From Akkermansia muciniphila (GTDB lineage Bacteria > Verrucomicrobiota > Verrucomicrobiia > Verrucomicrobiales > Akkermansiaceae): a stretch of DNA of 35,404 bases. The first letter of the stretch is position 1; each line of letters starts with the position of its first letter. Positions 20,354 through 31,490 of the stretch are shown one piece after another. The position numbers and the translations under genes are program-made. A model generated the notes under the pieces. The model was not told the DNA's origin. It was given only the letters and a program-made list of their open reading frames with translations, and searched no databases. The stretch spans positions 1 through 35,404 of the forward strand of contig CAMAYN010000015.1 in NCBI GenBank assembly GCA_945862285.1. The letters run 5' to 3'.

Positions 20354-20372
20354 TGTTACGAAATTGTCACAA
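20354..20372 (+). promoter_or_regulatory. Motif site A, TGTTACGAAATTGTCACAA, upstream of the 571-aa gene
   Basis: 17-mer TTACGAAATTGTCACAA (20356-20372) recurs exactly on the opposite strand at 23959-23975. Confidence 0.6.
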
Positions 20373-20409: not shown

Positions 20410-22125
20410 GTGAACCCTGCTGTGGAACTATTTCTCATCGACGCTATTGGCCCGTTTTTTCGCGGGCATACTGGAAAACGGATTAACTGGTCGAAAATCC
20501 CATTCGTCATGCTCGACGAATCTCCGCCAACGTGGGATCGGATTCGAGCGGATGTGTGGAAGTTTTGTAAAGAATCTTCTGCACTTGGCTACAATGCCGT
20601 GACTCTGGATGACGTTGCGCATTTGTATCATCACCCACTTCATGAAGAGGAGTTGCGCCTCCGTATCGCCTTCCTGCGCGATCAATTTCGACAAATTTTC
20701 CGCATCGTTATCGAAAGCAAAATGCAAGTCTTTCTGACGGTGGATGCCGTGCCCATGACTGCGGCATTGGAACGTCACTTTTGCTATGATCGCGAGGCGA
20801 TAGATCGGTATTTCCAAAACATGATCGCTAGCGTGCTGGATGATTTTCCTGAAATTGCGGGCATTATTTTACGCATCGGTGAGAGCGACGCGCGGGATGT
20901 GAAAGATCCACTAAAATCGCATTTGCACATTAAATCGGCAGCGCACGCGAATGAGGTCTTGCACCTGCTGCTTCCCGAATTTGTTGCGAGAGAACGTACG
21001 TTGATTTTTCGTACATGGACAGTTGGGGCTTATGGCATAGGCGACCTGATCTGGCATCGCGATACGATTTCTAGAGCATTAGCTGGACTCGGCGGGGAGC
21101 ATTTCATCGTCAGTATGAAACATGGAGAAAGTGATTTTTTCCGCTATCTACCTTTGAATAAAGCATTTTTCCACGTGCCGCAGAAAAAGATCATCGAACT
21201 CCAAGCAAGGCGCGAATACGAAGGCGCAGGCGAGTATCCGTCGTTCATCCTCAAGGATTGCCTCGCCTTTCACACACAACTTGCCACGATTAAAAATATG
21301 GTAGGCATGTCGGTATGGTGCCAGACTGGCGGTTGGCATCGCTTTAAAAGGCTGGCATTTTTGCAGCAAGATGAATCGGATCGCTGGATCCGCGCCAATG
21401 TTCTTGCTGCCATTCGCATTTTCCGCTATGGCGATAGTCGCGATGAATTCCTACAACATTGGATGCCGCAGCATGCGAAGGAAGCAGGGCAATTTATCGA
21501 TTCCTGCGATCACCTCATCGAGCAAGGCTTGTACATTAAAAGTTATGCACGACAGAAAAATTTCTTCCGCCGACTGCGCTTACCGCCGCTACTCCACACC
21601 TACTGGGATTCCGTCTATGTTCATCCGTTTCTGCGGGTATTTAAGCAGCAGTTGATCTGCGATTATGAATCCGAACTCGCCGCAGACAGCCAACTGATGA
21701 GCGAATTTGCAAAACTGAAAGCCAACTGCCAGGCGTGGGGATGGCCCGCAGATGACATCGAGCACATGGAGGATTTATGGCGCATTCTCTTGCTGGTACG
21801 CGCTTATTATTTCAGTCCCGATAGCGATAAAGCATTATCGATGGTACGCGATGCGAAAAAGGCTTACAAAAAAAGATGGCCTGCTGCACAACGTACACGT
21901 TACCGCATTAAAACCAATTTCCCCCGCCAAGCTCTGTCTCCGAAGCTAGTAAAATGGTGCTCGAAAATTTTCCTCCGTGGAAAGCGCGGCTACCGGATTT
22001 TTGATCAAATCGTCACCATCCACGGCCTAGCGATTCTTTTCAAGGCGACCTCTGCCAACTCCCGTAAGGCATTGCCCAAAGCTCTGCGCAAACTTGCCAT
22101 GGGTATCGATACCCTATTTCGTTAG
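20410..22125 (+). CDS. Hypothetical TIM-barrel/glycoside-hydrolase-like protein
   Basis: 571 aa; alternating strand/helix segments (YNAVTLDDVAHLYHHP, KMQVFLTVDAVPMTA, EIAGIILRIGESDARD, LIFRTWTVGAYGIGD) resemble GH TIM barrels. GTG start. Confidence 0.7.
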   Translation: MNPAVELFLIDAIGPFFRGHTGKRINWSKIPFVMLDESPPTWDRIRADVWKFCKESSALGYNAVTLDDVAHLYHHPLHEEELRLRIAFLRDQFRQIFRIVIESKMQVFLTVDAVPMTAALERHFCYDREAIDRYFQNMIASVLDDFPEIAGIILRIGESDARDVKDPLKSHLHIKSAAHANEVLHLLLPEFVARERTLIFRTWTVGAYGIGDLIWHRDTISRALAGLGGEHFIVSMKHGESDFFRYLPLNKAFFHVPQKKIIELQARREYEGAGEYPSFILKDCLAFHTQLATIKNMVGMSVWCQTGGWHRFKRLAFLQQDESDRWIRANVLAAIRIFRYGDSRDEFLQHWMPQHAKEAGQFIDSCDHLIEQGLYIKSYARQKNFFRRLRLPPLLHTYWDSVYVHPFLRVFKQQLICDYESELAADSQLMSEFAKLKANCQAWGWPADDIEHMEDLWRILLLVRAYYFSPDSDKALSMVRDAKKAYKKRWPAAQRTRYRIKTNFPRQALSPKLVKWCSKIFLRGKRGYRIFDQIVTIHGLAILFKATSANSRKALPKALRKLAMGIDTLFR

Positions 22126-22128
22126 ATA

Positions 22129-22941
22129 TCATAGCGGATCAACGAGTTGTCGTGCCGCTGCCGCAAGGCTGGCGGCATCGCCGTATGCTTCTGCCGGAAT
22201 AACGCCGCGGAGAATCATACGATGCGTCGTATTGCATGCTGCGGTAAATGTCCTACCTAACAGAAACGTCCGTACCAAAGGATGCAAGGACAGGAAATAC
22301 TCCATCGTCCGCTGATGATGGGCATCGATTCGTAAACAAGCCACTGGCACACGGCAACGCAGAGCGATTTCGAAAACCGACAACATCCACGCACCGTCCC
22401 TCACCACGCCGTCGTCTTGCATCCACGAAATCGTGCCAGCGGGAAATGCCGCTATGCAACCACCTTGGTTCAAGTGCTGCATCGCCCGTCGTAAACTCTT
22501 CGCATTGCGTCGAGCTGCCTGTTCGCCACCATAAAGGGACAAACCAATGACGTGATTCTTAAAAGAAGGAATCGTCACCAGTGCATCGGTCGTCAGGATC
22601 AACGTATCCAATCGCTGCTCTAACAACCATTTTCCATAACTAATACCGTCCATGCAGCCCGTCGGATGATTCGCCACTACGACCAGAGGTCCACTCGGCA
22701 GAGATCCATCGCCCACGACGTTGAGATGACTTAGCTCAGCGATTCCGATGAAGGGATTCGCTGCATCAGGATTCAGCTCGTGTGCCTTTGCTGTAATCTT
22801 TCCCCCTTTGTCAAAAGCCGTAACCCACGCCGCGAAATTTCGCAGCCACTGCTTGAATCGGCTTTTGCCCGCTAAAAAGGGTAACGCAACGGATAGATCC
22901 GGAATGGAATCACGCCAAGAGCTATCCTTTTTGCTTCCCAT
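22129..22941 (-). CDS. olsA-like: PlsC-like 1-acyltransferase (OlsA/GlsA type)
   Basis: VVVANHPTGCMDGISYG (NHx4D-like block) and IAAFPAGTISW; start refined to MGSKKDSSWRDS, overlapping the stop of the upstream gene. Confidence 0.78.
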   Translation of the reverse strand: MGSKKDSSWRDSIPDLSVALPFLAGKSRFKQWLRNFAAWVTAFDKGGKITAKAHELNPDAANPFIGIAELSHLNVVGDGSLPSGPLVVVANHPTGCMDGISYGKWLLEQRLDTLILTTDALVTIPSFKNHVIGLSLYGGEQAARRNAKSLRRAMQHLNQGGCIAAFPAGTISWMQDDGVVRDGAWMLSVFEIALRCRVPVACLRIDAHHQRTMEYFLSLHPLVRTFLLGRTFTAACNTTHRMILRGVIPAEAYGDAASLAAAARQLVDPL

Positions 22942-23891
22942 CACGCACAATCTCGTCCCGCCGCTGCATGATACGCGCGTAAATTCTCCCAACCATCGGC
23001 ACCCAAATACCGCTTAACAGTTTGATCGGGAGCTGCGAGCAAATCCGTCACAATCAATACATCGATCGAATCACCAAAATTCGAATCAACATTAAAATCT
23101 AATACCCGAGCATTCAGTTTCAGATAGTGTTTGAGTAAAATAGGAATCCCCATCCCATCCACATCCGTTACGGTGGCATTGACCGCTTCTACCGTAGCGC
23201 ATTTGCGAAATAACTCACTCGTACCATCTTGCAGTTGATCGATTTCTTCCAGCACCGAACGAAACGGTTGATGCGCTTTCACCATCGGGCTCCAGTTGTC
23301 ATGCATGCGGTCTTGACGTAAGAATTCCACCATCAAGCTTCGGCTCAGATGCGAATAATCATTACTGATACTCACCGGGCCAAACAACAAGCGATGTTGT
23401 GGATTTTTACTGACAAATGCTCCGATTCCTTTCCATAACAAAGACAAAACAAAAGGATGCCCCTGATACTCTGGAACTACAAAAGAACGCCCTAGTTCAA
23501 TTCCTTCATTTAACAAATCGAGAAAATCGCTAGAAAAACCAAATAGTGTGCTTGTGTAAATCCCCTGGTCGCCCGCTGTGGCACGGATTGTCCCCACAAC
23601 TCCGATCCGATAGCCGCCGACGATTTTTTTCGCTTCGTCATCCCACAAAAAGAGTTGTAGATAGGTATCGTCGAAGGAATCCATGTCCATGGATTTACCC
23701 GTGCCTTCACCAATACAGCGGAATGTAATTTCCCGCTGAATGGCAATCTCGCGCATAATGTTGGGAATTTCTTTCGATGAACATAGGTAGGTAGAAAATT
23801 GATTATGCTGATGCAGTCGCTTGTCCGCAGGTAACTGCGCAAGCTCTCTCGCTAGAGAATCAACGTGGACGGATGTAGCTATCGTTTCCAT
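22941..23891 (-). CDS. olsB-like: GNAT-like N-acyltransferase for aminolipid synthesis (OlsB/GlsB type)
   Basis: VGGYRIGVVGTI...GIELGRSFVVPEYQGHPFVLSLLWKGIGAFVSKNPQHRLLFGPVSISNDYSHLSRSLMVEFLRQ matches Acetyltransf_5 (PF13444)-type proteins; coupled to the PlsC gene. Confidence 0.8.
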   Translation of the reverse strand: METIATSVHVDSLARELAQLPADKRLHQHNQFSTYLCSSKEIPNIMREIAIQREITFRCIGEGTGKSMDMDSFDDTYLQLFLWDDEAKKIVGGYRIGVVGTIRATAGDQGIYTSTLFGFSSDFLDLLNEGIELGRSFVVPEYQGHPFVLSLLWKGIGAFVSKNPQHRLLFGPVSISNDYSHLSRSLMVEFLRQDRMHDNWSPMVKAHQPFRSVLEEIDQLQDGTSELFRKCATVEAVNATVTDVDGMGIPILLKHYLKLNARVLDFNVDSNFGDSIDVLIVTDLLAAPDQTVKRYLGADGWENLRAYHAAAGRDCA

Positions 23892-23958: not shown

Positions 23959-23975
23959 TTGTGACAATTTCGTAA
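23959..23975 (-). promoter_or_regulatory. Motif site B, TTACGAAATTGTCACAA on the minus strand, upstream of the olsB-like gene
   Basis: Plus-strand TTGTGACAATTTCGTAA is the exact reverse complement of site A's 17-mer; same orientation relative to its downstream gene as site A. Confidence 0.6.
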
Positions 23976-24015
23976 GATTGGCAAGTAAAAGATTCCTCCG
24001 ACAAAATCGCAGATC

Positions 24016-24039
24016 TTGTGTGACGAACGTGTCACACAA
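24016..24039 (+). promoter_or_regulatory. Motif site C, TTGTGTGAC-GAACGT-GTCACACAA, upstream of the giant phosphoesterase gene
   Basis: Perfect 9-bp inverted repeat with 6-bp spacer; contains TGTGACGAACGTGTCACA, aligning with sites A and B. Confidence 0.65.
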
Positions 24040-24099
24040 AACTTCTCTGCCATCGTCAGTCTGTAGATATGGTTGCGTTGCAGCCAACTGCGAAATACA

Positions 24100-27000
24100 A
24101 TGAAACGAAAACAATTCCATATACTTGCCCTACTATCTATGCTGGCGCCATCCGCCTATGCATTGTCGCCCGGCGATGTAGCCATCATCGGGTATAATAC
24201 GTCTGGTTCGCCAGATTCATTTACGATCGTAACAATGACTGAGCTTGCTGCTGGCACGAGCTTTTTTATCAACGATAACGAAATCGCCACTGATGGCGGT
24301 GGATCGTTCACCGACCTGAATGAAGGGGAGGCATCATTCACTGTCAAAGCCGGCCAAACCATTCCAGCAGGCACCGTCATCACACTCCCATGGGGTGGTG
24401 CTGCGGTTTCCACGTCAACCTATGACTACAGTACAACTTCAGGTTTTGGCCTCGGCAACAACAACGAGGAAATCCATATCTATGAAGCCAGTTTGATCAC
24501 TTCTACAACGCCGACTACCTTCCTATTCAGCGCAAAGATCGGCAGTAGCCCAAGCTCACGTCCCTCAGGTTTGACAGCGGGTACTACATTTATTTCGCCA
24601 ACAGGTACAGCATCGCGCTACAAAATCGCTGGAGCCACGTATTCGGGCACTCCGAGCGAACTACTCACCGCCATCGGCGACACCGCGACTAACTGGGAAG
24701 CAGTTGCACCAGCAGCCACGACGGATTGGACATTTTCTGTTACCGGCGGCGGCGGTCCCACAAATACCCTCACGCTCTCCGCGTCTCCAAGCACTTTTTT
24801 GGAAAATGCGACCAATCCAGCCTCTGTTGGTACTGTCACTCGCTCGGAAGTAACGGGCAGTGATCTGGTTGTAACCCTTTCCTCGTCTGATGTCACCGAA
24901 GTCACAGTGCCTGCTACCGTGACAATTTTGGCCAATCAGGCTTCCGCCACCTTCGATGTTGCGGCGGTGAATGACGACATTCCAGATGGTAATCAAATCG
25001 TCAATCTGACTGCTACCGCATCATCCTCTTCCACGGGCAACTTCAATGTCACAGTGCAAGATGATGGCGATACACTACCTCCTACTGCTTTGCAAACAGG
25101 TGACATCGCTTTCACCTCTTTCAACGCCGACCGCGATGCCATCGCTTTCGTGGCACTAGATGCCATCCCCGCTGGTGAAGTGATCTACTTCAACGACAAC
25201 GAATGGAACGGCAGTGCCATCGGTGCGGGCGGTGCTTTCAACACTGGCGAAGGTGTCGTAACCTGGACAGCCCCCGCTGGCGGAGTTGCCGCAGGAACTG
25301 TCGTAGTGATTGATAACTACGATGTATCTACTACGATTTCTGCCTCTGTAGGCACCGTTACTGGTTCATCAGGTCTCAGTGCCACAGAAGAATCCATTTA
25401 CGCCTATCAAGGACTATCTTCCAGTCAACCTACCACGTTTCTTGCTCTCGTCGCCAACCACGCCGCAGATAGCATCGCCAACACGGGCCTGACCTCAGGC
25501 ACCACGGCAATCTACCTTACGAGCAGTGCTGACTTTGCTGACTATGCAGGCGCACGCTTTGGTCAAGCAAGCTTTGCCGATTATCTGCCCATCATTGGTA
25601 ATATCACCAACTGGACGATTAACGTTGACGGTGCTGGTGTAGATGTTGTGCCAAGTGCAACCCCATTCATCACTGGCACTCCTGCTGTTACCGTTGGCAT
25701 TGCATCCACCGTTTCTGTGACAGAAGGCAACTCTGGTTCTGTGCAACTCAACTTCCCTGTCACACGCTCGATTGACGCGACGGCATTTTCTATCGATTAC
25801 GCCATCACTGGCGGCACGGCCACATCAGGCACTGACTTCACACCACTCGCCAGCGGCACACTCACTTTCCCCGCCAATAGTGGACCACTCATGCAAAACA
25901 TCAGCGTGGAAATCCTCGGCGATGAAATCATCGAGTCAAATGAGACGATCATCATCACACTTAGCAACTTGGTGCAAACCACGGGCACAACGACCCTGAC
26001 TACGGCGGTCAGCACTGGAACAATCACGAACGATGATTCTGTCCCCAACGTGTTTCCCGCAAGCAACAGTATTGCCACTTCGGTAAAAGGAAATATCACC
26101 CTCGCAGGTGCAGAAATCCCCGCCTTCGATCCCATTTCCAAGCGCGCTTTCGCCGCCTCCGGCACCGGTATTCAAGTGGTCGATCTCACGAACCCTGCTT
26201 CGCCAGTTTTTATCTCTACCATCCAGCCCTCCACCCTTATTTCGGGATTGGTAGGTGACGACATCTCTTCCGTTGCTGTTCGCAAAGGTTCTGGCAGCAC
26301 CCCTAGCATCCTTGCAGCATCCATCATTAACTCGCCCAAGACCACCAACGGCCACGTGGTTTTCGTCAACGCCGCCACGGGTGCATTGCTCGGCACCGCT
26401 ACCGTTGGCTCCGTTCCGGATCACATCGCCTTCACGCCCGATGGCACCAAGCTCCTCGTGTGTAACGAAGGGGAACTCGATGGCAGCAACGCTAACATCG
26501 CCACCGAAAACATTCCTGGCACCGTGAGCATCATCAATATCACGAATGTTGCCGCACCCACCGTGCAAACCGCAGGTTTTGCCAGTTTCAATGCTCAAGC
26601 CGCCGCGCTCAAAGCCGCTGGCGTCCGTATCTTCGAAGGCGGAATTCCCGAGTTCGATTTCGAGCCTGAATACCTCGCCATTTCTCCCGACGGAACCAAG
26701 GCCATGGTCACTCTGCAAGAAGCCAATGCCGTCGCCATCCTCGACATCGCATCTGCGACATTTACTTCCGTCGTTCCTCTCGGTGAGAAAAATTTCATCA
26801 ACGGCAGACACGACTTCAGTGACCGCGATGCCGCCGGCGGCAGTTCTGGCCTCGTTAACCCTACCACGGGTAATCCAGTCTTCGGCCTCTACATGCCCGA
26901 TGCCATTGCTTCCTACTCCGTTGGTGGTCAAACCTACTACATCACCGCTAACGAAGGCGATGATCGCAATGACTTCATCGAGCCTAACGAAACCACAACT

Positions 27001-30000
27001 GTCTCTGCTGCTGGTTATGTTCTCGATCCTACAGTATTCCCGGATGCCGCTACCCTGAAAACAAATCCTCGTCTCGGTCGCTTGGTGGTCTCAAACGCAC
27101 CAGGTCTGCGCGGTGATATTGATAACGATGGTGACATTGATCGTATCCTCAGCTACGGCGGACGTTCCTTCTCCATTCTCGACGCCAATGGCGCACAAGT
27201 CTTCGACAGCGGCGATATGATCGAAATGATTGTCGCCTCTCAGTTTCCTGCACTGTTAGATGACACTCGCAGTGACAACAAAGGTCCCGAGCCTGAGGGC
27301 GTTACCGTTGCGAAAATCGGCGCCCGCACCTTTGCCTTCATCGGCCTTGAGCGCTCGCACATGACGCTCGCCTTCGATGTGACGAATCCACTCGCCCCTA
27401 CCTATGCCACCGCGTTCCAACGCACTGGCGATTTAAATCCAGAAGGCATGGTCGTCGTCGAAGCTGCCGATAGCCCCTCCGGCAAGCCACTGCTCATCGT
27501 AGCCAACGAAGTTTCAAATACACTTACTGTGTTTGAAATCAATCAACCCGTTGATTTCAAACTCCAGTTGCTCCATCTCGCCGATGCTGAAGCAGGTCTC
27601 CTTGCCTCACAAACGGCTCCAAACCTAGCCGCGCTCGTGGATGCCTTTGACGGCACTTACGCTAACACCCTCATCCTCGCTGGTGGTGACAACTTCATCC
27701 CTGGTCCATTTATCGCAGGTGGAACAGATATCTCCGTGCGTGACGAACTCAACACGGTCACAGGTTCCACCATGAGCCTCACATCACCCACGTTCAATCA
27801 CCCGACTGCCGCTGTGGACATCGCTATTCACAACCTCATCGGTGTTGAGGCATCCACCGTCGGCAACCACGAGTTCGACCTTGGCACCCGCGTTTTCCGC
27901 GATGCGATTCAAGCCGGTAGCGGCTGGGTAGGAGCAAATTTCCCCTACCTCTCCGCGAACTTGGACTTCTCTGGTGACTCCGACATATCAGGCCGCTTCA
28001 CCAACACCCTAAGTGGCAACTCCACGTCATTGATTGCTGAAGCCAGCACCCTCAAGGGACGCATCGCCCCCTCCGCCGTCGTCACCAAAGGTGGAGAAAA
28101 AATCGGCCTCGTCGCCGCCACCACCCAGATACTTGAGAGCATCTCCTCCACTGGTGGTGTGGAAGTCATCGGTTTCTCTGGTGACGGCTCCGAGACAAAC
28201 AACATGACGCTCCTCGCCTCACAACTCCAGCCCGCCATTGATGAGCTGAAGTCTGAAGGTGTAGATAAAATCATCCTCATGGCGCACCTCCAGCAGATTA
28301 CCCTCGAGCAACAACTCGCACCACTCCTCAATGGCGTGGACATCATCCTTGCCGCCGGGTCTAACACCCGCCTCGGCGATTCGAATGACGTAGCCGCAGC
28401 CTTCACTGGCCATACCGCTGACTTCGCTGCCAACTACCCCATCTACACCGCTGGTGCTGATGGCTTGCCCACCGTCATCGTCAATACCGACAACGAGTTC
28501 ACCTACCTCGGTCGCCTTGTTGCGGACTTCGATGCCGACGGTGTCTTGATCGTGCCGAACCTAATGGCGAACATCGTGGAAAACGGTGCCTATGCCGCCA
28601 CCGATGCCAATGTTGCCGCCGCATGGAATACTACCGTAGGCAACCTGCCGACGACAGCCTTCGCCGCTGGCACCAAAGGCGCGCAAGTGAAATTGCTCAC
28701 TGATGCCGTGCAGGCGGTGATTAATGCCAAAGACGGCGACATCCGTGGCTACACCGATGTCTATCTCGAAGGCGAGCGCAATATCATTCGCAACCAATCT
28801 ACCAACCTTGGTGACATCACTGCAGATTCGCTCATCGCTGCCGCGAAACCATCGCTTCCTTCTGTTACACACATCGCCGCATTCAAAAACGGCGGTGGCA
28901 TTCGCTCCTCTATCGGAGCGGTGGAAGTTGGCAACGGACTCAAAACACCACCGATCGCCAACCCTAGCGCCAATAAACCAGCGGGAGCCATCTCTCTTCT
29001 GGATATCGAAAACTCCCTGCGTTTCAACAACGGCATCATGGTCTGCGAGACTACACCTACGGGTCTCAAAAATATCATCGAGCACGGCGTATTCAACGCA
29101 GGCACCAGCAACGGACGTTTCCCACAGATCGGCGGCATCCGCTTCTCCTACGATCCCTCCCTCAGCCCAGGAGCACGTGTCCTCAGCCTTGTGTTAGTCG
29201 ATGAAAACGACAACATCACGGGCCGCGTCGTTTCGAATGGAGTGATTCGCTCGGACGCACCTGCGACCATCACTATCGTCACTATGAACTTCATTGCCAA
29301 TGGCGGTGATAGCTATCCATTCAAAGCCAATGCGGACAATTTCCGCTACGTGCTAAACAATGGAACACTCTCCTCCGTGGTGGACGAGTCACTCGATTTC
29401 ACAAATGCGGCAAACGTGCCCTCGAATATCCTTGGCGAGCAACTTGCCCTATCCAACTACCTGCAAGTCCGCTACGCTACACCAGCAAGTGCCTTTGACA
29501 TTGCTGATACGACTCCGGCCTTTGACATCCGCATCCAAAGCACCGCCGTCCGCAGCGATGCCGTGCTCGCTGGCCCCGCCACCTTTGGCGCATGGCTCGC
29601 CCTCAACGGCTACACTTCCACCGGTATTGATACTGATACCGATAACGATGGCGTGATCGATAGTCTTGAGTTTTTCTTCAATCAAAACCCCAACAATGGT
29701 GCTGATCAAGAAAACTTACCGAAGCTCGTCCCTAACGGAAATGCTTTAGCGATGCAACTCGCCTACAACAACCAGACTCCCCTGAGTGGTGCGCTTCAAG
29801 TATCCAGCGATCTCACTACATGGGACAATGGATTCTTAGGAGTTGACTTCTCTGTGGCATCGAGCGTTGTCAATGGCGATGAAACAACCGTTAACTACGC
29901 ACTCCTGGGCAGCGGACCATCCGCCGCTGGCACATCAGCGACCTACGCCACGCCAAACAGTGCCGATCCCGCAGGTGCCTCTCTCGGTGGTGTCCGCGTC

Positions 30001-31422
30001 ATCAATCACGGCCTCGTTGGTGTTGGTCGCCTCAGCGGCAATGCCCTCGACCAATTCGGTGAAACACAAGGCGCCGCCTCTGGCCTGTTCATCTCCAACT
30101 GGGCATGGAACGGCAACCAGTTCACTGGCACATTCAACGTGCTTCCTGACCGTGGCTACAACGCAGGCACGATCTTCTCGAACTACGCCGCCCGTCTCCA
30201 CGATGTGAACTTCACCTTCTCCCCTTACTACGGCACTGCGCCCGTCGCCCAAGGTCAGATCGTCCCCACCTACGCCAGTTCCACCAAGTTCACTTACATG
30301 GACGGTGAGAAAATTAAATTTACTACTGGACTTGATGTGACATCCACTGGCTCGCTCTTCGGTGAATCCGTTGGGATTGCCACGGCAGCGAATGGCCCAG
30401 GCGGCACGCAAGAAAGCCTACTTAGCTTCGATGCCGAAGCTGTGTATCTCTTCAGCGATGGCTCCGGCTACGTCTCCGATGAATACGGCACCTACATCGC
30501 CCGCTTCAACTCGGCAAAACGCATCACTGGCATCACTCAGCTCCCTGAGTCCGCCCGTCCGCACAACCCCGCTGGCACATCGAATTTCAGTTCCACTACC
30601 ACACCAGTCAGTGGTCGTCGTCAGAACCAAGGTCTCGAAGGTATGTCCGTCACTCCCGATGGCACCCGCCTCTTCGCCGTCATGCAAAGTGCCCTCGTGC
30701 AAGACACCAACGGTGCCAACCAACAAACGCGCAATAATACCCGCCTCTTCGTTTACGATGTCGCTGGAGTCAATCGCGAGAACCCCGTGTTGATTGGTCA
30801 ATACGTCGTCAAACTGCCACAGTTCCAGGCCACTGGTGCTGGCACAGCCGTCAACCGCACCGCCGCACAATCGGAAATCATTGCTCTCAACGGCACATCC
30901 TTCCTGATGCTGCCCCGTGATGGTAACGGCCTCGGCACTGGCACTACCGCGCCCATCGTCTTCAAGTCCGTGCAGCTTGTCGATTTCGCCTCCGCGACCA
31001 ACATTCTTGGCATGTATGATGCCGAAGGCGCTGCCGTCAGCCCTGCAGGCGTTCTTCGTCCAGAAGTAAAAGCCGCCGCTTCCATGGAAGTGATCAACAT
31101 GCTTGAGCCAACAGACCTTGCGAAGTTTGGATTGAATAAAAACACCAATCCCTCCAACGCAAATACTCTGAACGAGAAAATGGAAGGCATGGCACTCGTG
31201 CCAGACCTCTCCACTCCCGCCGCTAACGACTTCTTCCTCTTCATCGCCAACGATAACGACTTCCAGTCGTCCGATGTGAAGATGATCGATGCCAGCGGCG
31301 CACTCGTCAGCTACGGCGACGGTCGCCTCAACGCCGGCCTCACCAACGACGCGATGTTCTACGCCTACCGCATCACGATTGACGCTAGCGGCAAGCGCTT
31401 CTTCCGCTTTGAAGTGAAATAA
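24100..31422 (+). CDS. Giant secreted multidomain phosphoesterase: two N-terminal beta modules, Calx-beta, choice-of-anchor-I propeller, 5'-nucleotidase/metallophosphatase, phytase-like esterase domain
   Basis: Start refined to MKRKQFHILALLSMLAPSAYA; Calx-beta VTEGNSGSVQLNFPV...GTITNDDS; LQLLHLADAEAG...GDNFIPG...GNHEFD and the 5'-nucleotidase C-terminal block FKNGGGIRSSIG; DTDNDGVIDSLEFFFNQNPN; phytase-like GVGRLSGNALDQFGETQGAASGL and NQGLEGMSVTPDG. Confidence 0.85.
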   Translation: MKRKQFHILALLSMLAPSAYALSPGDVAIIGYNTSGSPDSFTIVTMTELAAGTSFFINDNEIATDGGGSFTDLNEGEASFTVKAGQTIPAGTVITLPWGGAAVSTSTYDYSTTSGFGLGNNNEEIHIYEASLITSTTPTTFLFSAKIGSSPSSRPSGLTAGTTFISPTGTASRYKIAGATYSGTPSELLTAIGDTATNWEAVAPAATTDWTFSVTGGGGPTNTLTLSASPSTFLENATNPASVGTVTRSEVTGSDLVVTLSSSDVTEVTVPATVTILANQASATFDVAAVNDDIPDGNQIVNLTATASSSSTGNFNVTVQDDGDTLPPTALQTGDIAFTSFNADRDAIAFVALDAIPAGEVIYFNDNEWNGSAIGAGGAFNTGEGVVTWTAPAGGVAAGTVVVIDNYDVSTTISASVGTVTGSSGLSATEESIYAYQGLSSSQPTTFLALVANHAADSIANTGLTSGTTAIYLTSSADFADYAGARFGQASFADYLPIIGNITNWTINVDGAGVDVVPSATPFITGTPAVTVGIASTVSVTEGNSGSVQLNFPVTRSIDATAFSIDYAITGGTATSGTDFTPLASGTLTFPANSGPLMQNISVEILGDEIIESNETIIITLSNLVQTTGTTTLTTAVSTGTITNDDSVPNVFPASNSIATSVKGNITLAGAEIPAFDPISKRAFAASGTGIQVVDLTNPASPVFISTIQPSTLISGLVGDDISSVAVRKGSGSTPSILAASIINSPKTTNGHVVFVNAATGALLGTATVGSVPDHIAFTPDGTKLLVCNEGELDGSNANIATENIPGTVSIINITNVAAPTVQTAGFASFNAQAAALKAAGVRIFEGGIPEFDFEPEYLAISPDGTKAMVTLQEANAVAILDIASATFTSVVPLGEKNFINGRHDFSDRDAAGGSSGLVNPTTGNPVFGLYMPDAIASYSVGGQTYYITANEGDDRNDFIEPNETTTVSAAGYVLDPTVFPDAATLKTNPRLGRLVVSNAPGLRGDIDNDGDIDRILSYGGRSFSILDANGAQVFDSGDMIEMIVASQFPALLDDTRSDNKGPEPEGVTVAKIGARTFAFIGLERSHMTLAFDVTNPLAPTYATAFQRTGDLNPEGMVVVEAADSPSGKPLLIVANEVSNTLTVFEINQPVDFKLQLLHLADAEAGLLASQTAPNLAALVDAFDGTYANTLILAGGDNFIPGPFIAGGTDISVRDELNTVTGSTMSLTSPTFNHPTAAVDIAIHNLIGVEASTVGNHEFDLGTRVFRDAIQAGSGWVGANFPYLSANLDFSGDSDISGRFTNTLSGNSTSLIAEASTLKGRIAPSAVVTKGGEKIGLVAATTQILESISSTGGVEVIGFSGDGSETNNMTLLASQLQPAIDELKSEGVDKIILMAHLQQITLEQQLAPLLNGVDIILAAGSNTRLGDSNDVAAAFTGHTADFAANYPIYTAGADGLPTVIVNTDNEFTYLGRLVADFDADGVLIVPNLMANIVENGAYAATDANVAAAWNTTVGNLPTTAFAAGTKGAQVKLLTDAVQAVINAKDGDIRGYTDVYLEGERNIIRNQSTNLGDITADSLIAAAKPSLPSVTHIAAFKNGGGIRSSIGAVEVGNGLKTPPIANPSANKPAGAISLLDIENSLRFNNGIMVCETTPTGLKNIIEHGVFNAGTSNGRFPQIGGIRFSYDPSLSPGARVLSLVLVDENDNITGRVVSNGVIRSDAPATITIVTMNFIANGGDSYPFKANADNFRYVLNNGTLSSVVDESLDFTNAANVPSNILGEQLALSNYLQVRYATPASAFDIADTTPAFDIRIQSTAVRSDAVLAGPATFGAWLALNGYTSTGIDTDTDNDGVIDSLEFFFNQNPNNGADQENLPKLVPNGNALAMQLAYNNQTPLSGALQVSSDLTTWDNGFLGVDFSVASSVVNGDETTVNYALLGSGPSAAGTSATYATPNSADPAGASLGGVRVINHGLVGVGRLSGNALDQFGETQGAASGLFISNWAWNGNQFTGTFNVLPDRGYNAGTIFSNYAARLHDVNFTFSPYYGTAPVAQGQIVPTYASSTKFTYMDGEKIKFTTGLDVTSTGSLFGESVGIATAANGPGGTQESLLSFDAEAVYLFSDGSGYVSDEYGTYIARFNSAKRITGITQLPESARPHNPAGTSNFSSTTTPVSGRRQNQGLEGMSVTPDGTRLFAVMQSALVQDTNGANQQTRNNTRLFVYDVAGVNRENPVLIGQYVVKLPQFQATGAGTAVNRTAAQSEIIALNGTSFLMLPRDGNGLGTGTTAPIVFKSVQLVDFASATNILGMYDAEGAAVSPAGVLRPEVKAAASMEVINMLEPTDLAKFGLNKNTNPSNANTLNEKMEGMALVPDLSTPAANDFFLFIANDNDFQSSDVKMIDASGALVSYGDGRLNAGLTNDAMFYAYRITIDASGKRFFRFEVK

Positions 31423-31455: not shown

Positions 31456-31490
31456 AAACGGCCTTCCTGATTCCAGGAAGGCCGTTTTTT
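31456..31490 (+). terminator. Rho-independent terminator, probably bidirectional
   Basis: 11-bp stem CGGCCTTCCTG-ATTC-CAGGAAGGCCG with T tract on the + side and A tract upstream; lies between convergent genes. Confidence 0.9.

Follow-up and report, generated by a model that had tools for sequence, protein, structure and literature searches.

A putative PhoB operator with inverted half-sites upstream of a giant phosphoesterase-like gene in Verrucomicrobiales

Described operators of the PhoB type

Pho boxes, and nearly all sites of the OmpR/PhoB family, are presented in reviews and structures as direct repeats bound head-to-tail (PMC4415409, PMC4832192). The E. coli Pho box combines two GT(C/A)A(C/T) half-sites, with core centres 11 bp apart, with A/T-rich bases past the half-site, and it controls pstS and phoB. 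The PHO boxes of Streptomyces PhoP (GTTCACC-N4-GTTCACC) and other OmpR/PhoB-family operators are likewise all described as direct repeats. A site that can be read both as a direct and as an inverted repeat is that of the family member HP1043 (HsrA) of Helicobacter pylori (ttTAAG-5bp-tTTAAg), which has been modelled with a head-to-head arrangement (PMC8345958). Pho control of genes for ornithine lipids and other phosphorus-free lipids is known elsewhere. In a literature search that covered few subscription journals, no detailed account of a Pho box from Verrucomicrobia was found.

The site analysed here lies in a 35,404-nucleotide stretch of Verrucomicrobiales DNA (hereafter the window). It resembles the E. 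coli Pho box in its half-sites and their spacing, in the A/T-rich bases past the half-site and in the predicted control of pstS and phoB, but its first half is inverted, position 6/17 has almost exclusively C instead of C/T and, unlike at E. coli phoB, a -35-like TTG follows the box at a distance of about 9 bp. With the operators of Streptomyces PhoP and other family members it shares the 11-bp period and the phosphate regulon, whereas its layout is inverted. HP1043 differs in being an orphan, phosphorylation-independent regulator with another half-site and no phosphate regulon. The CRP site (TGTGA-N6-TCACA, a 16-bp dyad) contains the same TGTGA and TCACA letters; as correctly noted in the preliminary description of the window, the spacer is 2 bp longer here, and the targets are phosphate genes.

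The dyad and the distribution of its motif

The perfect 9+6+9 inverted repeat TTGTGTGAC-GAACGT-GTCACACAA occupies positions 24016–24039, 61–84 nt 5′ of the ATG at 24100, exactly as first described. It has no strand of its own and separates a divergent N-acyltransferase gene (22941–23891, minus strand) from a giant gene (24100–31422, plus strand) whose predicted secreted product of 2440 aa contains, according to domain searches, Calx-beta, choice-of-anchor I, 5′-nucleotidase-like and phytase-like esterase domains. As a bare dyad the 24-mer is not beyond chance: counting arms of 9 nucleotides or more and loops of up to 20, the window contains three perfect dyads, versus 2.7 ± 1.6 in dinucleotide shuffles (0.16 for the same class restricted to loops of 6). 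As a motif it is clearly beyond chance, because of the motif family to which it belongs in the host genome and in the taxonomic family. Within the window, TGTKACGAANNTGTCACA with up to 3 mismatches has three matches versus 0.39 expected, a number that no shuffle reached. These matches bear out the kinship proposed earlier between the 24-mer and two further sites, A (box TGTTACGAAATTGTCACA, 20354–20371, plus strand) and B (box TCTTACGAAATTGTCACA, 23960–23977, minus strand). The corresponding part of the 24-mer, designated site C, is the 18-bp core TGTGAC-GAACGT-GTCACA (24019–24036, plus strand).

Site B, recovered by motif search and matrix, belongs to the divergent operon. Domain searches suggest that this operon encodes an aminolipid N-acyltransferase (22941–23891, resembling the C-terminal half of OlsF and GlsB) and a lyso-aminolipid O-acyltransferase-like protein (22129–22992, minus strand, resembling the N-terminal half of OlsF and GlsA), both under the NCBIfam cut-offs. 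Site A, found by motif search, matrix and comparison of orthologues, precedes a gene for a 571-aa protein (20410–22125, plus strand) with no match in Pfam, NCBIfam or PDB sequences. Its AlphaFold model (mean pLDDT 73) predicts a TIM-barrel glycosidase-like structure, with a resemblance to GH138, GH20 and GH84 at fold level only. Orthologues of this gene were found in 54 of 145 genomes of the family.

We then consider the host genome, for which all genome-wide statistics come from pattern searches. The 18-bp core, generalized as TGTGAC-N6-GTCACA, is the motif that recurs there: TGTNACRNANNTGTCACA with one mismatch has 16 matches in 3.65 Mb, and TGTNACGAAATTGTCACA with up to 3 mismatches has 34, versus 6 for the reversed control. 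Boxes are located 46 bp 5′ of phoU-phoB-phoR (contig C182, locus L002; the products carry PhoU, Response_reg plus Trans_reg_C, and HisKA plus HATPase domains), 63 bp 5′ of pstS (contig C37) and ahead of a DUF47 plus PHO4 gene for a PiT phosphate transporter (contig C256). Two boxes precede a DUF3419 (BtaA-like) gene (contig C32; L009 3691–3761), a pair that points to the use of phosphorus-free betaine lipids in phosphate starvation, beside the aminolipid gene pair of the window. The boxes of the window itself stand ahead of that pair, of the giant 5′-nucleotidase/phytase-like gene and of the 571-aa gene. The genes at which the motif recurs are thus pst, phoB and other phosphate-starvation genes, as for known Pho boxes.

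A further box (L017 1501–1518, C155:6721–6738) is located just 5′ of type II secretion-type pseudopilin genes (N-methyl/GspI-like), which suggests phosphate-controlled secretion. The Hxc system of Pseudomonas is a parallel for such control.

Over the 145 family genomes the motif has 63 matches, versus 1 for the reversed-pattern control. Boxes are found directly 5′ of PhoB-type response regulator genes in five genomes (L093, L099, L106, L107, L108), of Na/Pi cotransporter genes in four (L101, L110, L111, L112), of pstS in three (L098, L105, L116) and of a gene for a phosphate-selective OprP-type porin (Porin_O_P) in L095. Expectation maximisation run without a seed on the upstream regions of 30 pstS genes converged on TGTGACGGATTTGTCACA in nearly all of them, with a log-likelihood of 256 versus 62 after shuffling. 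The motif that the same procedure extracted from phoU upstream regions has the look of a coding sequence and was discarded; in many genomes phoU comes after other genes, which probably explains it. In the small-genome genus g3 the boxes are weak.

The promoters of orthologous genes retain the box to different degrees. Absence of the dyad from such promoters, which the preliminary description had named as evidence against its proposal, holds for the perfect symmetry only: a scorable inverted box is located 75–95 bp 5′ of the start in all four giant-gene orthologues in which the N-terminus is present (per-promoter shuffle p 0.01–0.02), although these boxes are weaker than site C of the window. 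The closest relative (L040, a Verrucomicrobiaceae MAG, 80% identity) retains sites B and C. Its site C is TGTGACGAAATCTTCACA, flanked as CAA-TGTGACGAAATCTTCACA-CAA, so that the box survives whereas the perfect dyad is lost. The outer TTG/CAA that make the dyad "9+9" are therefore not conserved, and across 37 sites the outer bases display no complementarity beyond a symmetric A/T preference. The full 9+9 perfection emphasized at first is thus not supported. For the site-A gene, an inverted box was the best site in 15 of the 20 orthologues examined, 56–71 bp 5′ of the start, and was individually significant in 10 of those 15. The N-acyltransferase box (site B) is retained in the closest relatives only.

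Half-site orientation and promoter layout

The preliminary description had offered two readings, a dyad or direct half-sites with an 11-bp period, and the choice between them proved to be the question to ask. A dyad agrees better with the evidence, although 11 bp is also the PhoB period. Because the PhoB core GTNAC reads identically on both strands, half-sites repeated in the same direction every 11 bp always resemble a dyad in part, and their orientation can be judged mainly from a single base pair in each half-site. Among the 59 E. coli sites known from ChIP-seq (PMC10294691), this central base is A17 C42 G0 T0 at position 4 and A18 C40 G1 T0 at position 15, that is C/A in both halves with one exception among 118 half-sites. 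We compared these counts with 28 pstS promoters of the family, picked with a mask blind to positions 4 and 15. Position 4 is G25 T3 and position 15 is C20 A4 G2 T2, so that half 1 carries G/T in 28/28 promoters and half 2 carries C/A in 24/28; G/T is C/A read on the opposite strand. Two TGT(C/A)A(C/T) half-sites with an 11-bp period are thus present in these promoters, with half 1 read on the opposite strand and not as a direct repeat. At site C, the upstream half-site is GTCACA on the minus strand (24019–24024) and the downstream half-site is GTCACA on the plus strand (24031–24036).

A half-site matrix trained on E. coli sites only was used to score the layouts FF and RR (direct), RF (inverted) and FR (everted). 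Site C scored 17.7 as RF, 13.1 as FF, 11.9 as RR and 7.3 as FR. All 12 host-genome sites were called RF, versus 58 of 59 E. coli sites called FF. The 22 significant pstS promoters of the family comprised 17 RF, 4 RR, 1 FR and no FF, versus 5 FF, 2 RF and 1 FR among the small number of pstS promoters that could be scored in other families of the class (RF versus direct, Fisher p = 0.02, uncorrected for relatedness). With the neutral pattern TGTNAC-N6-GTNACA in 22 family genomes, the 74 listed places were divided into RF 49, RR 16, FF 6 and FR 3. The inverted layout therefore appears as a strong preference and not as a rule, because direct pairs exist in some family promoters. At either end of the box, the two base pairs just outside it are rich in A/T (89 and 89%, and 73 and 89%), with background composition beyond. 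This would fit one A/T tail per half-site pointing outwards, a second and independent sign of the inverted layout. In the phylum outside the family, the perfect RF pattern is not enriched (6 RF versus 13 FR matches of the same composition); we therefore make no phylum-wide claim.

Other layouts were observed within the class. Some pstS promoters of genus g7 (L165, L166, L174) combine a direct (RR) box with an inverted (RF) one. In family f5, direct repeats of the form TGTCAC-N5-TGTCACA (L179 at 3587, 5975 and 9564; L180 at 2733, 6657 and 8700) repeatedly precede chemotaxis-receptor-like, porin-like and small substrate-binding-like genes, and seem to be a different use of PhoB-like direct repeats. 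The clustered direct repeats in the class members G222 and G232 were left out as Pho boxes, being located at chemotaxis- and porin-like genes that are not obvious Pho genes.

Aligning 48 family boxes in gene direction, we found TTG enriched 9 bp past the box (10/48 boxes, versus a mean best offset of 3.9 in rotated controls) and TAnnnT enriched 32–34 bp past it (11/48 versus 5.9); none of 300 rotated controls reached as high for either. These elements look like a -35/-10 pair about 18 bp apart, with the box upstream of a -35-like element. In contrast, the box of E. coli phoB takes the place of the -35, because the -10 region begins about 10 bp past it. The present site, in which neither a direct repeat nor a box in place of the -35 was found, is a variant of the Pho box and not a plain member. 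At the giant gene, a candidate -10, TATGGT (24068–24073, plus strand), is located 31 bp past the box, near the family offset for TAnnnT. The -35 of site C itself is poor, as would be expected for an activated promoter.

A predicted phosphate-starvation operator and its alternatives

The preliminary description had proposed a regulatory-type site in the giant phosphoesterase promoter, of the same kind as A and B and distinct from CRP, which agrees with our analysis; the regulator and the regulon (PhoB, phosphate starvation) were absent from it. We consider the 24-mer to be quite probably a PhoB operator of inverted design within a Pho regulon, and the giant 5′-nucleotidase/phytase-like gene is best explained as one that would be switched on in phosphate starvation. 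That PhoB binds the box is suggested by its co-location with the regulon, by a placement of the autoregulation type and by the identity of its half-sites with those of E. coli PhoB. The host genome encodes PhoR and a PhoB 41% identical to that of E. coli, whose best NCBIfam match is TIGR02154 (PhoB) at 225.7 bits, versus an equivalog cut-off of 296.2. The base-contacting residues of PhoB are T194, V197, R201 and R219 (PMC3264566); the host protein retains T194, R201 and R219, with V197 replaced by T in each of the five aligned sequences from the family.

When phosphate is scarce, PhoR would phosphorylate PhoB, both being encoded behind a box of the same type (phoU-phoB-phoR, contig C182). A PhoB dimer could then bind the facing half-sites, GT(C/A)ACA-WW, across 6 bp and, standing just upstream of the -35 region, help a sigma-70-type RNA polymerase at a weak promoter. 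Transcription, presumably directed by the candidate -10, would lead to production of the giant secreted protein. Sites B (divergent aminolipid synthesis) and A (571-aa protein) would belong to this regulon as two more operators.

An ordinary direct-repeat Pho box (TGTGACG-N4-TGTCACA) bound by head-to-tail PhoB, with the dyad as a by-product of GTNAC, was our first idea and was dropped after the position-4 count. We now regard it as unlikely, even though the spacing is exactly the PhoB period, the half-sites match, the Pho boxes already described are direct repeats (PMC4415409, PMC4832192) and genuine direct repeats (GG/CC pairs) occur at some family sites. In none of the 28 pstS promoters does half 1 carry C/A at position 4, whereas half 2 and all E. 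coli half-sites need C/A; moreover, the A/T tails are symmetric and the E. coli-trained matrix favours the inverted layout in 17/22 significant promoters and 12/12 host sites. More doubtful still is another symmetric dimeric repressor or activator (CRP/FNR, GntR or similar) that would share its targets with the phosphate regulon by chance. Perfect dyads are typical of such factors, the TGTGA and TCACA letters resemble CRP, and a position upstream of the -35 recalls class I/II CRP sites. However, the sites are concentrated at pst, phoU-phoB-phoR, phoB and Pi transporter genes, and C is preferred over A at the variable base just as in E. coli PhoB sites. A CRP-type site in particular was rejected, the TGTGA-TCACA spacer being N8, both here and in the recurrent motif, instead of the N6 of CRP, and the targets being phosphate genes.

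Two explanations without a protein operator have a negligible probability. The number of perfect dyads of this size class in the window and the lack of conservation of the outer arms would suit a functionless chance dyad with an accidental likeness to A and B, but the motif counts in the window and the family, given above, and the retention of the box in the four scorable orthologous promoters argue against it. An mRNA-leader hairpin or terminator would agree with the folding of the 24-mer as RNA at -11.9 kcal/mol, but site B does not fold (0 kcal/mol), the L040 orthologue folds weakly (-3.6), neither a T-run nor an Rfam match was found, and a candidate -10 located downstream means that the dyad is probably untranscribed. 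This explanation was rejected on the sibling sites without a fold and on the position.

Returning to the inverted PhoB operator, we also favour, with appreciable reserve, a more general proposition drawn from the genome comparisons. PhoB of Verrucomicrobiales would use inverted operators, binding as a head-to-head dimer to GT(C/A)AC half-sites ahead of a -35 left intact; head-to-tail boxes would persist in several related families of the class. Within one class, the layout of the operator would thus have flipped for a single orthologous regulator, both forms coexisting in some promoters. If true, this would be a natural case of mirrored half-sites in use by an OmpR/PhoB regulator whose DNA-contact residues are nearly unchanged, and the matching of receiver-domain and DNA-binding-domain symmetry could be tested directly on a single protein family with two kinds of operator. 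The phylum also gains a usable phosphate-regulon motif, by which a giant ecto-phosphoesterase, aminolipid and betaine-lipid synthesis and a conserved 571-aa protein can be provisionally assigned to phosphate starvation.

Two other perfect dyads were observed in the window. One (12+8+12, 27531–27562) is located within the giant ORF. The other, the 14+4+14 inverted repeat AAACGGCCTTCCTGATTCCAGGAAGGCCGTTT (31456–31487), lies directly past the stop codon of the giant gene and is probably a bidirectional terminator towards a convergent SASA-type esterase gene.
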